Below are positions 6,200-11,276 of a stretch of 48,874 nt of DNA, one piece after another. The notes below the pieces were generated by a model. That model ran no database searches, was not told the DNA's origin, and saw only the letters and a list, made by a program, of their open reading frames with translations. The position numbers were made by a program, and so were the translations under genes. The stretch comes from an uncultured bacterium. Lineage in GTDB: Bacteria; Patescibacteriota; Andersenbacteria; UBA10190; CAIZMI01. Position 1 is the first letter of the stretch. Every line of letters begins with the position of its first letter. Where the stretch lies: NCBI GenBank assembly GCA_903934015.1, contig CAIZMI010000018.1:1-48874 (forward strand), written 5' to 3'.

Positions 6200-6766
6200 T
6201 CACAACATGGTGCGAGTCAGATCCTGGAAGACGGGGATATCCTTCGTACCGCGTTTGATGTCAGTGAAAATGACTATGGCATCACCAGTGAAATCGCGCA
6301 CAGCGGTACCGATCGGGCAGGCATCAGAATTCCCACGGTTATTGAACGCACGTGCGACCCGATTAGTATCCTCACGTGCCCAATCAAACCCGAGTTCCGG
6401 CAACTCCTCGCCCTGATGTTCACGAATCGCGAAGTTACAGCCACAGTGCCCTACCACAATCAGATTTTTGACCGGAAAATGAAGAAGTTTGATACGCAGG
6501 TTCTCGACCAGAGTTGCGAAGTACCCCGGTTGCCTTTCATGGTGAGCAAATGCCGCTGCACCACCAGCAATCGATATCAACTGCCAGTCACGCTTGAATC
6601 TACCCAGACGCAAGCGGTGACTATAGTAATCGAATTGCGCCTCAGAGAAGCGACTGTCGAAGCAGTCCACAACCAACGTCTCGACAACAACCTTGTGACG
6701 AATCCTGGAAATCGGATGTAGCGAGTGATAAAACCGACCAACATTAACTGACGTCAGCCACAACAT
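6200..6766 (-). CDS. carbonic-anhydrase-like protein (beta-CA fold)
   Basis: VVDCFDSRF ... ISIAGGAAAF ... VVGHCGCNF, resembling the C-x-D-x-R and H-x-x-C zinc motifs of beta-CA. Confidence 0.7.
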   Translation of the reverse strand: MLWLTSVNVGRFYHSLHPISRIRHKVVVETLVVDCFDSRFSEAQFDYYSHRLRLGRFKRDWQLISIAGGAAAFAHHERQPGYFATLVENLRIKLLHFPVKNLIVVGHCGCNFAIREHQGEELPELGFDWAREDTNRVARAFNNRGNSDACPIGTAVRDFTGDAIVIFTDIKRGTKDIPVFQDLTRTML

Positions 6767-6991
6767 ACAGCCTCCTTGTATTGAGTAAACGGACCACGAA
6801 GAATTTTACCAAATGAACATTAGTAAATTTTATAACTATGAGTAGATTCGTCAACAGCGTTTGACAGTAGTTTTCATATCTATTTTCGAGGCGCCCCTTC
6901 TAAGGGCTCGATTTGCAATATTTATAGGACATACCACAGAGCGGTCCCGAGGTGGCGCTCGGGGACGATTTTGCGAACTACGCAAAATCGT

Positions 6992-7020
6992 TTGACACAA
7001 TTTTTTATTACCGATATAAA
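6992..7020 (+). promoter_or_regulatory. sigma70-type promoter of leader module 1
   Basis: TTGACA - 17 nt - TATAAA; predicted +1 about 7027-7028. Confidence 0.7.
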
Positions 7021-7027
7021 TACATAC

Positions 7028-7132
7028 ATGCAAACTTTTGGAAAAAGTTATACACAGTGGATGACCTGCAAAACAAACTTACGTTTGGCAGTTGTTTTTA
7101 TTAAGCATCTTATCCAAACTTCCAGGAGTTAA
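7028..7132 (+). CDS. leader-peptide-like sORF 1 (34 aa)
   Basis: MQTFGKSYTQWMTCKTNLRLAVVFIKHLIQTSRS*; paralog of 7239-7358; starts at the predicted TSS. Confidence 0.6.
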   Translation: MQTFGKSYTQWMTCKTNLRLAVVFIKHLIQTSRS

Positions 7133-7170
7133 ACTAATCACTTTATAAGCAGTCGCACACTTGATTAATA

Positions 7171-7200
7171 AACCTCCTGGGCAAAATCCGGGAGGTTTTC
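7171..7200 (+). terminator. intrinsic terminator 1 (attenuator)
   Basis: AACCTCCTGG-GCAAAAT-CCGGGAGGTTTT. Confidence 0.75.
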
Positions 7201-7238
7201 GTTAAACATTAAGAATTTATTAATAGAAAGATCAAATC

Positions 7239-7358
7239 ATGAAAAATTTTAGCCTTACAACTTGCTATTGGATGACCCGCAAAACAACCGTGCGTTTGGC
7301 AGTCTTATTTATTAAGCACGTCATGCGCACCAACCCGGGAGTTAACCTATCCACATAG
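7239..7358 (+). CDS. leader-peptide-like sORF 2 (39 aa)
   Basis: MKNFSLTTCYWMTRKTTVRLAVLFIKHVMRTNPGVNLST*; W-M-T-x-K-T-x-[LV]-R-L-A-V-x-F-I-K-H shared with sORF 1. Confidence 0.6.
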   Translation: MKNFSLTTCYWMTRKTTVRLAVLFIKHVMRTNPGVNLST

Positions 7359-7387
7359 CAAGAATGTAAGCATAAATGGATTTCGTT

Positions 7388-7420
7388 AAACCTCCCGAGG
7401 TATTCCCCGGGAGGTTTTTT
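7388..7420 (+). terminator. intrinsic terminator 2 (attenuator)
   Basis: AACCTCCCGAGG-TATT-CCCCGGGAGGTTTTTT. Confidence 0.8.
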
Positions 7421-7517
7421 AGAAAAGTTAGGTGATTGGCGCGAAGCAAAAAAAATTCCGCCAGCAACTTAGCTGGAAGCAGTAGTGTCCTTTTCACAAT
7501 TGAGGAGTTAGAAAGCA

Positions 7518-9353
7518 ATGTTACGAATGACAAGTTCCCTCGCCGCCCTCTTTCAAGTACCTCGCCTGTACATCACAGTCCGCGGCCAAACCCGATCCGA
7601 AGCAGTGCTTGCCCAAATCACCACTCGACTAACCAAGAAGCTCGTCGGGAGTGAAACGACATCCTTCCAATCCACCTTCCTCGAAGGTCAGGAGGCACTT
7701 CCGCAAGAATGTCTGGTCCTGAAAGACGCGGCTGCGGTGCAGGCTCTATTTGAAAGCGGTGTTTCCCGTGATTCCGTGGTTGCCGTATTTGACCAAGAAG
7801 GCCGCGAAGATCACTACCACACTTTCACAACCTGCCTACGTGCCAACAACGACATGCCCAAATGGGCTAGCGGTTGCCACTGGGGCATCGCAGTTTTTCC
7901 TGGTTGCGTCGGAGACCACTTCCAGCGTAATTGCGGTGAACAAGCAGCGGCGCACTTTAACCGCAATTTCGTCAAGAATTTGCTCAGGGGGCAATTCCCC
8001 TGGGGAAAAATCCGCAGCAGTGAAAATCCCCCTGTGAATGTTGGCATCCCAGCACGAGTACGCGAAACCCTGACACGACTCAACGCTGGACCAAATCTTG
8101 CAGCAGCAATTGCTGACCAAGCATGTGCCGCTGAACTTCCTACCGGGTCGTACATCAGTTGGTATCGTGTGTCTCACGACCCAATCGAATGCGATCTGCA
8201 ACAGATGCTGCGGGCGGTCGACGCCATGGCAGCATTTGAACCAGTCTGCAACCTGCTGGCTTCATCCGACACCGATGTACAGTCAATACTCATGGCCGGC
8301 GTCGATGTCGACCCGGCAGTACGCGACGTGTATCTTATTCCAAAGTCTAACCAATTTTCTGTCCGACGACCCGACTTCCACTTTACCGGTGCGTCACATG
8401 TGTTTGCATCGGAGAACGACGAAATGCCTGGCGGAATGGCGGAACTGGCTTTCCTGGATCTGGTCTACGGACTTAATCAGGAACGCTGGAAAGCTTGCTT
8501 CGACTGGCTGACCAAGGACGGTCGTTTACTGTTCCTCGTTTCGCATGTCTGGAGCAAGTGCTACACCACCGAGATCCTGTGGCTTACTCAGTACTTGCAA
8601 GGGCTCGGTTACGACGTGGGCATGATGACCACAGAAAACATGGACGCCTTAACCGTCAAAAGTGATGGTGTCTATGACGAGACCGGTCGGATTGGCACTA
8701 TCTGGCGCCAATTCCCTATCTTTGAAGCAAGAGGCAAACTCGTCGATCTGGTTCTGGCTAGCCACGAAGGCAAAGTCCGAATGGTTCCCGAGTTCGCCCA
8801 CTACGGCAACAAAGTGTGGTTCTCGATCTTCCGAAGCCACAACGCGTTTTTCCGTGACCACTTGGACGATGCGACGTTTCGATTGCTCGACAAACTTCTT
8901 CCCGATTCTCACTTGGTGCGAAGTCGGGAGAACTTTCCCTTTTCGGTCGAAGGCACCGCGATCGATTCGCTTGCGGCGCTTTGCGCCTTGCCTCCTGCGG
9001 TTCGCGACGGACTTGTCATGAAACTCTCAGGAGCAAACACATTGACCGCCCGGTCATATGGCGTGATCATGGGCCACGGATTGACCCAAAAAACCTGGAG
9101 TGAGTGGGTTGATGAACGGATTCGTCTCGAACAACCCTTCATCGTGCAACGCCGGCTGGAAACCGGAACGATCGATCTGCCGGTGGTAAACACCAGTCGC
9201 GACGTCGGGGAACTTTTCCGATGTCGAGTCCTGCTGCGCCCGTGGCACATGGGCGGTCAGCTGGTCTCGGTGCACGCTTGCGCCGTCCCCAGTTCGACCT
9301 TGCGTGTACACGGTCGTGTGGATATGTGTGTGCCACCAATCCTGCTGGTCTAG
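7518..9353 (+). CDS. hypothetical protein with ATP-grasp-like C-terminal region
   Basis: 611-aa ORF, GAGGAG upstream; C-terminus VMKLSGANTLTARSYGVIMGHGLTQKTWSEWVDERIRLEQPFIVQRRLE resembles circularly permuted ATP-grasp proteins. Confidence 0.7.
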   Translation: MLRMTSSLAALFQVPRLYITVRGQTRSEAVLAQITTRLTKKLVGSETTSFQSTFLEGQEALPQECLVLKDAAAVQALFESGVSRDSVVAVFDQEGREDHYHTFTTCLRANNDMPKWASGCHWGIAVFPGCVGDHFQRNCGEQAAAHFNRNFVKNLLRGQFPWGKIRSSENPPVNVGIPARVRETLTRLNAGPNLAAAIADQACAAELPTGSYISWYRVSHDPIECDLQQMLRAVDAMAAFEPVCNLLASSDTDVQSILMAGVDVDPAVRDVYLIPKSNQFSVRRPDFHFTGASHVFASENDEMPGGMAELAFLDLVYGLNQERWKACFDWLTKDGRLLFLVSHVWSKCYTTEILWLTQYLQGLGYDVGMMTTENMDALTVKSDGVYDETGRIGTIWRQFPIFEARGKLVDLVLASHEGKVRMVPEFAHYGNKVWFSIFRSHNAFFRDHLDDATFRLLDKLLPDSHLVRSRENFPFSVEGTAIDSLAALCALPPAVRDGLVMKLSGANTLTARSYGVIMGHGLTQKTWSEWVDERIRLEQPFIVQRRLETGTIDLPVVNTSRDVGELFRCRVLLRPWHMGGQLVSVHACAVPSSTLRVHGRVDMCVPPILLV

Positions 9354-9466: not shown

Positions 9467-10519
9467 ATGTCAAAAAATCAATCAGCAAAGAAAAGATATT
9501 TTGAATATGGTTTTTCAACCGGTTATTTGCCGTCTGGAAAAACTAATTCAATTGCGGATGTTAGTGGTGTCACTATTGGGCACATCTCAAAAATCGAAGG
9601 CACTGATGTACGAACCGGCGTGACAGTGATCGATCCGGGAGTAAATAATCTTTTTCAGGAAAAAATTCCCGCTGCTTTTTATGTGGCGAACGGTGCCGGA
9701 AAAGTCGCTGGGGTCACACAAGTGGAAGAATACGGAACAATTGAGGCTCCTATTGCTCTCACCAACACGCATGCAGTTGGATCAGTGATGCGCGGAATTA
9801 TTGACCTTGTAATTAAACAAAACCCTGATTTAAAACCAACGGATAGTATTAACGCGGTTGTTGGTGAAGTCAACGATGGCTATCTCAGCAATATTCACAA
9901 AAATGTCATAGAACCTGAAGATGTAAATAGGGCGTATGCAGCGCGTTCTGGGGATGTGGCAATTGGTAGCGTCGGTGCGGGCACGGGCACCCGCTGTTTT
10001 TACTGGAAGGGTGGAATTGGTACGTCCTCGCGCATTGTTTCTTTGGATGGCCAAAAATATACTATCGGCGTTTTAGTTCAAACAAATTTTGGCGGTTCCC
10101 TTAATTTAGCGGGAATCCCTTTTGGAAAATTAGTCGGAAAATCCGATTTCACTTTTGAAGAAATTATTCCGGATGGCTCTTGCGTAATTGTTGTCGCGAC
10201 AAATGCACCATTCACCGCGCGACAACTAAAAAGATTGGCTAAAAGGGCAATTATTGGCCTGACAAATACCGGCTCGGTTGTTGCAACCTATAGTGGCGAC
10301 TACGTCATTTCATTTTCTACAAATCGCGACGGAATTGAGGGGGTAACTCCACGACAAAAATTAATCCCGGATACAAGTTTGAACAATTTCTTTTTGGCAA
10401 CAGTAGAAGCAACAGAAGAAAGTATTTTTGATGCGCTTTTTGCTGCCGAAACAATGCGTGGCAAAGACGGTAATGTGCGCAATGCTTTTCCCATTGAAGA
10501 ATCTCTTAAATATTTATAG
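9467..10519 (+). CDS. P1 family peptidase (DmpA/L-aminopeptidase-D-esterase family)
   Basis: SIADVSGVTIGH, GVTVIDPG, APIALTNTHAVGSV, GSVGAGTGTRCFYWKGGIGTSSR. Confidence 0.9.
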   Translation: MSKNQSAKKRYFEYGFSTGYLPSGKTNSIADVSGVTIGHISKIEGTDVRTGVTVIDPGVNNLFQEKIPAAFYVANGAGKVAGVTQVEEYGTIEAPIALTNTHAVGSVMRGIIDLVIKQNPDLKPTDSINAVVGEVNDGYLSNIHKNVIEPEDVNRAYAARSGDVAIGSVGAGTGTRCFYWKGGIGTSSRIVSLDGQKYTIGVLVQTNFGGSLNLAGIPFGKLVGKSDFTFEEIIPDGSCVIVVATNAPFTARQLKRLAKRAIIGLTNTGSVVATYSGDYVISFSTNRDGIEGVTPRQKLIPDTSLNNFFLATVEATEESIFDALFAAETMRGKDGNVRNAFPIEESLKYL

Positions 10520-10526
10520 TAGTTTT

Positions 10527-11276
10527 ATGCAATTAAGTGACACAAAAAATATTATCGGAATCGTTGGCGGATTAGGACCGCTTGCCGGTGTATTGCTACA
10601 AAAATATATTATTGAAGCTACACCGGCAAATCGAGATCAAGACCACTTTTCAGTAATTACATACACAAATCCGCAAATTCCGGATCGTACAACTTCCCTT
10701 TTGGGACCCAAAAAAGGGCTGGATTTTGCCGAGGAAATAATAAAAACAATCGGTATCTTAGAGCAAGCCGGTGCATCGATTATTGGAATTCCGTGCAATA
10801 CCGCACACGCAAGATACGAGATAATTCAAAACGCATGCAACATCCCAGTTGTAAACATGGTGAAAGAAGTAGTCCGGTTATTTGATACCGAAAATGGTAG
10901 TAACATCGGTCTACTTGCGACCGATGGAACGATTGCCAGCGATGTGTACCAAAAATCTTCGTTAAATACAAAATGGATTATCCCAAACAAGCTAGAACAA
11001 GCGCTTGTTATGGATACGATTTACAGCATCAAAGCGGGACGCAAACCCCACATCGAAGCTATCATTAATATTTGCAATAACCTATTGTTCCGAGGTGCCG
11101 ACAGAATAATTTTAGGCTGTACTGAACTTTCAATTATCCAAGATGCATTGATCAAAGCAAAACTACCGCTACTTGATTCGTTGCGAATTTTGGCAAAAAT
11201 TCTAATTAATCAAACTGCCCAACAAGCCACGACGTCTAAAATTTTCACCCAAAAAACTCTTCAAGTCGCGACATGA
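10527..11276 (+). CDS. aspartate/glutamate racemase family protein
   Basis: IGIVGGLGPLAGVLLQ, IGIPCNTAHARYE, IILGCTELSII. Start trimmed to MQLSDTK. Confidence 0.88.
   Translation: MQLSDTKNIIGIVGGLGPLAGVLLQKYIIEATPANRDQDHFSVITYTNPQIPDRTTSLLGPKKGLDFAEEIIKTIGILEQAGASIIGIPCNTAHARYEIIQNACNIPVVNMVKEVVRLFDTENGSNIGLLATDGTIASDVYQKSSLNTKWIIPNKLEQALVMDTIYSIKAGRKPHIEAIINICNNLLFRGADRIILGCTELSIIQDALIKAKLPLLDSLRILAKILINQTAQQATTSKIFTQKTLQVAT

Follow-up and report, generated by a model that had tools for sequence, protein, structure and literature searches.

In B. subtilis vmlR, a uORF has been proven to lie inside an anti-antiterminator, and when a drug stalls the ribosome, the antiterminator can form (PMC9226507). 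The leader analysed here has a predicted layout of the same kind: a uORF inside an anti-antiterminator is followed by an antiterminator and an intrinsic terminator, and a stalled ribosome would give read-through (PMC9226507). The vmlR uORF is single, has an SD sequence and senses known antibiotics on behalf of an ABCF resistance gene, whereas here the first uORF is predicted to be leaderless and the module is doubled. We consider it likely that this leader consists of two ribosome-mediated transcription attenuators in series, working in the manner of vmlR.

Other uORF-containing leaders resemble it in part. Control of tnaC is Rho-dependent, and the present leader differs from it in having intrinsic terminators and a predicted three-way RNA switch. 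The likeness to TnaC of the tnaCAB operon would lie in the nascent peptide, whose ligand-dependent stall controls operon transcription (PMC8429421, PMC3902921). The ilvB-II motif, or ilvBNC uORF, of Corynebacterium is also a conserved uORF in a transcription attenuator, present once per genome at a fixed place 5' of its operon; its 15-17 aa are enriched in the regulating branched-chain amino acids, whereas here there is no such clear enrichment and there are no runs (PMC10272879). In the toiL uORF of E. coli topAI, stalls at various sites open a repressive hairpin formed with the uORF sequence, as proposed here, but what toiL controls is a ribosome-binding site and Rho rather than an intrinsic terminator (PMC12121999). 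Within the limited coverage of our search of the open literature, we found no report of attenuators in bacteria of this group.

Organization of the leader

We analysed a 48,874-nt stretch of DNA (the window). It is contig C18, one of the 64 contigs of a 1.34-Mb genome that is probably of the Patescibacteria/CPR type; the other genomes of the phylum that we compared are mostly 0.5-2 Mb. The leader and the operon behind it, operon B, are arranged as follows.

6992-6997 (-35) and 7015-7020 (-10), + strand: sigma-70 promoter TTGACA-N17-TATAAA, 7 nt 5' of the ATG at 7028; leaderless start predicted; kept in the congener G001
7028-7205, + strand: module 1 (uORF1, anti-arm or segment 2, terminator 1)
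7028-7132, + strand: uORF1, ATG 7028, TAA 7130-7132, 34 aa MQTFGKSYTQWMTCKTNLRLAVVFIKHLIQTSRS; no SD sequence
7033-7048, + strand: segment 1 of module 1, predicted partner of segment 2 (anti-antiterminator)
7120-7129, + strand: segment 2 (anti-arm) of module 1, TTCCAGGAGT; CCAGGAG (7122-7128) is complementary to CTCCTGG (7174-7180)
7170-7199, + strand: intrinsic terminator 1 (segments 3:4)
7239-7421, + strand: module 2 (uORF2, anti-arm or segment 2, terminator 2)
7239-7358, + strand: uORF2, ATG 7239, TAG 7356-7358, 39 aa MKNFSLTTCYWMTRKTTVRLAVLFIKHVMRTNPGVNLST; no SD sequence and no promoter of its own
7254-7279, + strand: segment 1 of module 2; its predicted pairing with 7336-7371 encloses the uORF core and the anti-arm
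7333-7342, + strand: segment 2 (anti-arm) of module 2, ACCCGGGAGT; CGGGAG (7336-7341) is complementary to CTCCCG (7392-7397)
7388-7420, + strand: intrinsic terminator 2 (segments 3:4)
7421-7517, + strand: leader tail kept in G001; it contains a small hairpin, CCAGC-N6-GCTGG (7461-7476), and the structural gene's RBS
7518-9353, + strand: 611-aa family B protein; the same leader type precedes its homologs in G314 and G386
9467-10519, + strand: operon B gene 2, peptidase family S58 (DmpA/P1 type), E 1.7e-102; order kept in G314
10518-11276, + strand: operon B gene 3, Asp/Glu/cysteate-racemase-like; order kept in G314

Re-checking the modules, ORFs, anti-arms, terminators and promoter returned the coordinates of the initial annotation throughout. 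Its promoter call, with +1 predicted at the first ATG, was confirmed as well, the chance p for such quality and distance being 0.001. No other segment of the leader pairs as well with the terminator 5' arm as the anti-arm does (shuffle p 0.034 for module 1 and 0.010 for module 2), and the same test gives p 0.005 and 0.001 for the modules of G001. Both whole modules fold better than all 200 of their shuffles, with z scores of -3.6 (module 1) and -6.6 (module 2). The anti-arm of module 1 has a predicted upstream pairing probability of 0.98 (shuffle p 0.007), while module 2 forms 33 long-range pairs against 10.3 ± 7.1 in shuffles (p 0.007).

The first 91 columns of the alignment of the two modules are free of indels, with several indels beyond; their terminator arms resemble each other; and a BLOSUM test of the uORF1 and uORF2 peptides gives p 0.005 over the whole and 0.04 over the core. 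The enrichment of differences at third codon positions reported previously is present, but only slight (10, 7 and 12 by codon position; 4, 2 and 7 in the core).

Positions 6966-6990 form a perfect 10-bp inverted repeat, CGATTTTGCG-AACTA-CGCAAAATCG, abutting the -35 box; because G001 lacks it, this repeat is perhaps a species-specific operator or upstream terminator. Inside uORF1, positions 7048-7056 (TTATACACA) match the DnaA-box consensus perfectly, probably by chance, and the match is kept in G001. A block resembling GTTCGTTTCACA recurs in the leader tails of G001, G004 and G009.

Model for attenuation

How might such a leader work? The position of the promoter, the ORFs, anti-arms and terminators, their conservation and the architecture that they share can be read from the sequences compared; around them we propose a model of translation, stalling, switching and signal. 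RNA polymerase would start at or within one nt of the first AUG, and ribosomes would therefore load on a leaderless uORF. Each module could adopt three competing structures: 1:2, the anti-antiterminator, a long helix of the 5' part of the uORF with the anti-arm region; 2:3, the antiterminator, of the anti-arm with the terminator 5' arm; and 3:4, the intrinsic terminator. The terminator would win, and the operon would be off, whenever no ribosome is present or a ribosome translates unhindered as far as the stop codon, which lies within segment 2 or just beyond it. A ribosome halted inside the uORF would break 1:2 and free segment 2, so that 2:3 could form and transcription read through. In the window modules, the last shared core residues, I25-K26-H27, end 13-15 nt before segment 2, approximately the reach of the ribosome's leading edge, and by this geometry segment 2 would stay uncovered if the ribosome stalled at that point. 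Doubling the module in series would tighten the control.

Some features count against the attenuator reading. In the second modules of the tandem leaders (window and G012) we found neither a promoter nor an SD sequence, which leaves initiation of uORF2 unexplained. In addition, segment 1 could re-pair behind the ribosome in late stalls.

A common architecture across genomes

Is this arrangement confined to one locus? Tracing two protein families, family B and the family A described below, yielded 12 modules in nine genomes, common in layout and mostly unlike in sequence. Upstream of each homolog comes a promoter, then an ATG ORF running through a segment that resembles the terminator 3' arm, then a terminator and the gene. 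The short ORF lies between promoter and terminator in 12 of 12 modules, has 26-43 codons with the anti-arm near its end, and stops 20-38 nt before the terminator. For each of the nine first modules, the best among the promoters within 80 nt has its -10 box 7-11 nt 5' of the ATG (p ≤0.008 each), and an SD sequence was found in none of the nine. The G012 leader is also tandem, with two modules in series. An anti-arm of CCNGGAGTTAA type recurs across modules, and conservation in the alignment of all 12 falls mainly in segment 2 and the terminator. uORF2 and G012 module 1 have Y10, W11/12 and I25-K26-H27 in register.

Whether homologs of the 7518 protein lack the modules had been raised as a test of the tandem transcription attenuator. 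Both other full-length homologs found, in G314 and G386, carry a module directly upstream, with promoter, ATG ORF, anti-arm and terminator, and support the proposal.

Antiterminator and intrinsic terminator are mutually exclusive, sharing segment 3. Anti-arm shuffle p values range from 0.001 to 0.52 over the modules; beyond those of the window, six others have p ≤0.056 and the rest are weak; single-module tests of the anti-arm are weak in G004, G009, G008, G345 and the second module of G012. A long 1:2 helix of the ORF 5' part with the anti-arm region appears in every module body fold, with 12-34 long-range pairs. Single-module tests of 1:2 mostly give p 0.05-0.4; over nine little-related modules, an anti-antiterminator overlapping the uORF has Fisher p values of 0.0008 (long-range pairs) and 0.001 (anti-arm sequestered), which are rough because these modules share some ancestry and are not fully independent. 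Most modules are more strongly structured than their synonymous recodings.

The peptide-core pattern gave chance matches only in 85k species genomes and viral contigs and no match in plasmids and phages. A covariance model of the genus modules, run on 380 genomes, found outside the genus only terminator look-alikes aligned mainly at the terminator. A 381-kb scan for further copies of the architecture returned only already-known ones that looked right, and it was not sensitive, since its filter missed several true modules.

What would halt the ribosome? The uORF peptides are basic and, in the frame of the ORF only, nearly free of D and E, which may be an indirect sign that the uORFs are translated: these residues take 4/317 codons in frame 0 versus 10/308 in frame 1 and 27/308 in frame 2, and stop-free shuffles contain 13.3 ± 3.0, with 0/400 as low as frame 0. 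A classical amino-acid starvation attenuator of the trp/his type, in which scarce charged tRNA halts the ribosome over segment 1, would use the same three-way RNA logic. The candidates are Tyr, whose TAT codon occurs at positions 8-12 in seven of nine little-related uORFs; Trp, found in eight of the nine and enriched 2.4-fold (p 0.013); and His. However, the TAT and Trp patterns were picked post hoc, after inspection of the uORFs, and each uORF holds 1-2 Tyr and 1-2 Trp codons without runs, where a cluster of end-product codons would be expected. Nor does any library match mark operons A or B as amino-acid biosynthesis genes. Because the uORFs lack codon runs, a starvation signal becomes less likely, and we regard this explanation as unlikely. 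In our attenuator model, the ribosome would probably be halted not by plain starvation but by a nascent-chain/ligand effect or an inhibitor: the peptides are rich in basic and poor in acidic residues, and no uORF repeats a single regulatory amino acid in a run.

The leader could also be read as a tandem ligand-binding riboswitch, whose folded body would be an aptamer sequestering the anti-arm, with the ORFs incidental. Module bodies minus terminators fold with z scores from -0.5 to -5.0, and the strong folding of the window's module 2 (-5.0), the tandem arrangement and the near-invariant core between congeners would all suit an aptamer. Yet Rfam at the gathering threshold matched only tmRNA and tRNA in the window, with no meaningful sub-threshold match at a relaxed one; no covariance model of a T-box or any described riboswitch reached its gathering score, and neither module was matched. 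The initial annotation had not recognised the leader as a known riboswitch either. Body sequences are mostly unlike across genomes, and the 12-module alignment contains no invariant aptamer core. An aptamer would also leave unexplained the ATG at the predicted +1, the frame that stays open across the anti-arm in every module, and the frame-specific scarcity of D and E. We therefore judge a riboswitch quite unlikely. A pure aptamer was an early idea of ours, abandoned once unrelated sequences with the same ORF layout appeared. An arrest peptide and an aptamer were first offered as mechanisms; comparison across genomes speaks more for control by the ribosome than for an aptamer alone. The leader is real and conserved, and it is probably a translation-coupled tandem attenuator.

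Retention of the leader and replacement of the operon

The same-genus comparison involves one genome, G001, which keeps both modules in the same order. A stretch of about 520 nt, beginning at the promoter and ending just 5' of the structural gene's start codon, is 88.4% identical at the nucleotide level. The leader is thereby better conserved than most flanking genes, whose DNA identities between window and G001 are 69.6% (PLD), 66.4% (FNR), 79.6% (VTT) and, as the exception, 87.9% (GIY-YIG). A search by sequence detected the leader neither in G002, a genome of the same family, nor in 57 other relatives. A reading without regulation would make the two terminators the end of a short RNA gene (an sRNA or its remnant) 5' of the operon, with the anti-arm as a by-product of duplication. 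It would fit the similar terminator arms of both modules but is very improbable, given that homologs from other families of the phylum are preceded by the same layout in unrelated sequence and that leader conservation exceeds that of most flanking genes.

Our first idea, that conservation of the core was purely that of a peptide, was abandoned. All module 2 differences between window and G001 change an amino acid, so the RNA is probably constrained too, and a 1-nt insertion in module 1 of G001 shifts the frame of the last few uORF1 codons. Both observations count against the attenuator reading; as far as these two sequences tell, the peptides of modules 1 and 2 are not classically conserved between congeners.

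Behind the shared leader stand different operons. The window has the family B protein (611 aa) there, followed by the S58 peptidase and the Asp/Glu racemase, whereas G001 has the family A protein (457 aa), which is unrelated, with an M24 peptidase and a cupin; neither genome contains the family of the other. Because the surrounding gene order is otherwise shared, one operon has evidently been replaced behind a retained leader. The suggestion that the leader controls 7518-9353 is supported in so far as the same leader type lies 5' of the G314 and G386 homologs, but the leader is not tied to this gene, a near-identical one preceding a non-homologous operon in G001.

The neighbourhood of the leader appears to be fast-evolving. 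Carbonic-anhydrase-like proteins (window 6200-6766, - strand; L013 10852-11538, + strand) are syntenic and only 32% identical, and other rapidly changing neighbours show 27-30% identity, against 88% for the leader. In G001 an ECF-type sigma factor gene (L013 10190-10762, - strand) lies just upstream of the leader on the same strand; no counterpart is present at that place in the window.

Protein families behind the leaders

Family B matches no Pfam, NCBIfam or PDB profile, and the predicted fold of the 611-aa protein, at pLDDT 33, is not usable; the earlier description of the 7518 gene as ATP-grasp-like is thus unsupported. Its homologs are in G314 and G386, and the S58 and racemase genes adjoin in G314. 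A short ORF in G008 (contig C12; L071 4758-5240, - strand) resembles part of family B (29% over 88 aa) and is possibly a fragment of it; the region upstream has no clear attenuator.

Family A, which has no Pfam or PDB profile match, is present in G004, G008, G009 and G012 (same order) and, distantly, in G345. Its operon with the M24 and cupin genes is retained among homologs, with varying gene order. No relatives of family A or B were found in viral contigs. A distant family A homolog (28%) on the Massilia forsythiae plasmid NZ_CP051686.1 (L077 4800-5990) adjoins two NRPS genes, with a 2OG-Fe(II) oxygenase nearby, and this setting suggests that family A acts in small-molecule synthesis.

Implications

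More tentatively, the leaders may represent a new group of basic, acid-poor arrest peptides that are translated from leaderless uORFs, sense one small molecule and, through partly tandem transcription attenuation, regulate two operons that are unrelated and interchangeable in a reduced-genome phylum. A probable translation-coupled switch with a predicted leaderless start recurs over distant families of this small-genome phylum and is doubled in the leaders of two lineages. Why would a leader sequence be retained while the operon behind it was exchanged for another? That the leader is shared suggests a common signal for two operons that are not related, and identifying that signal would therefore give a first functional handle on both.
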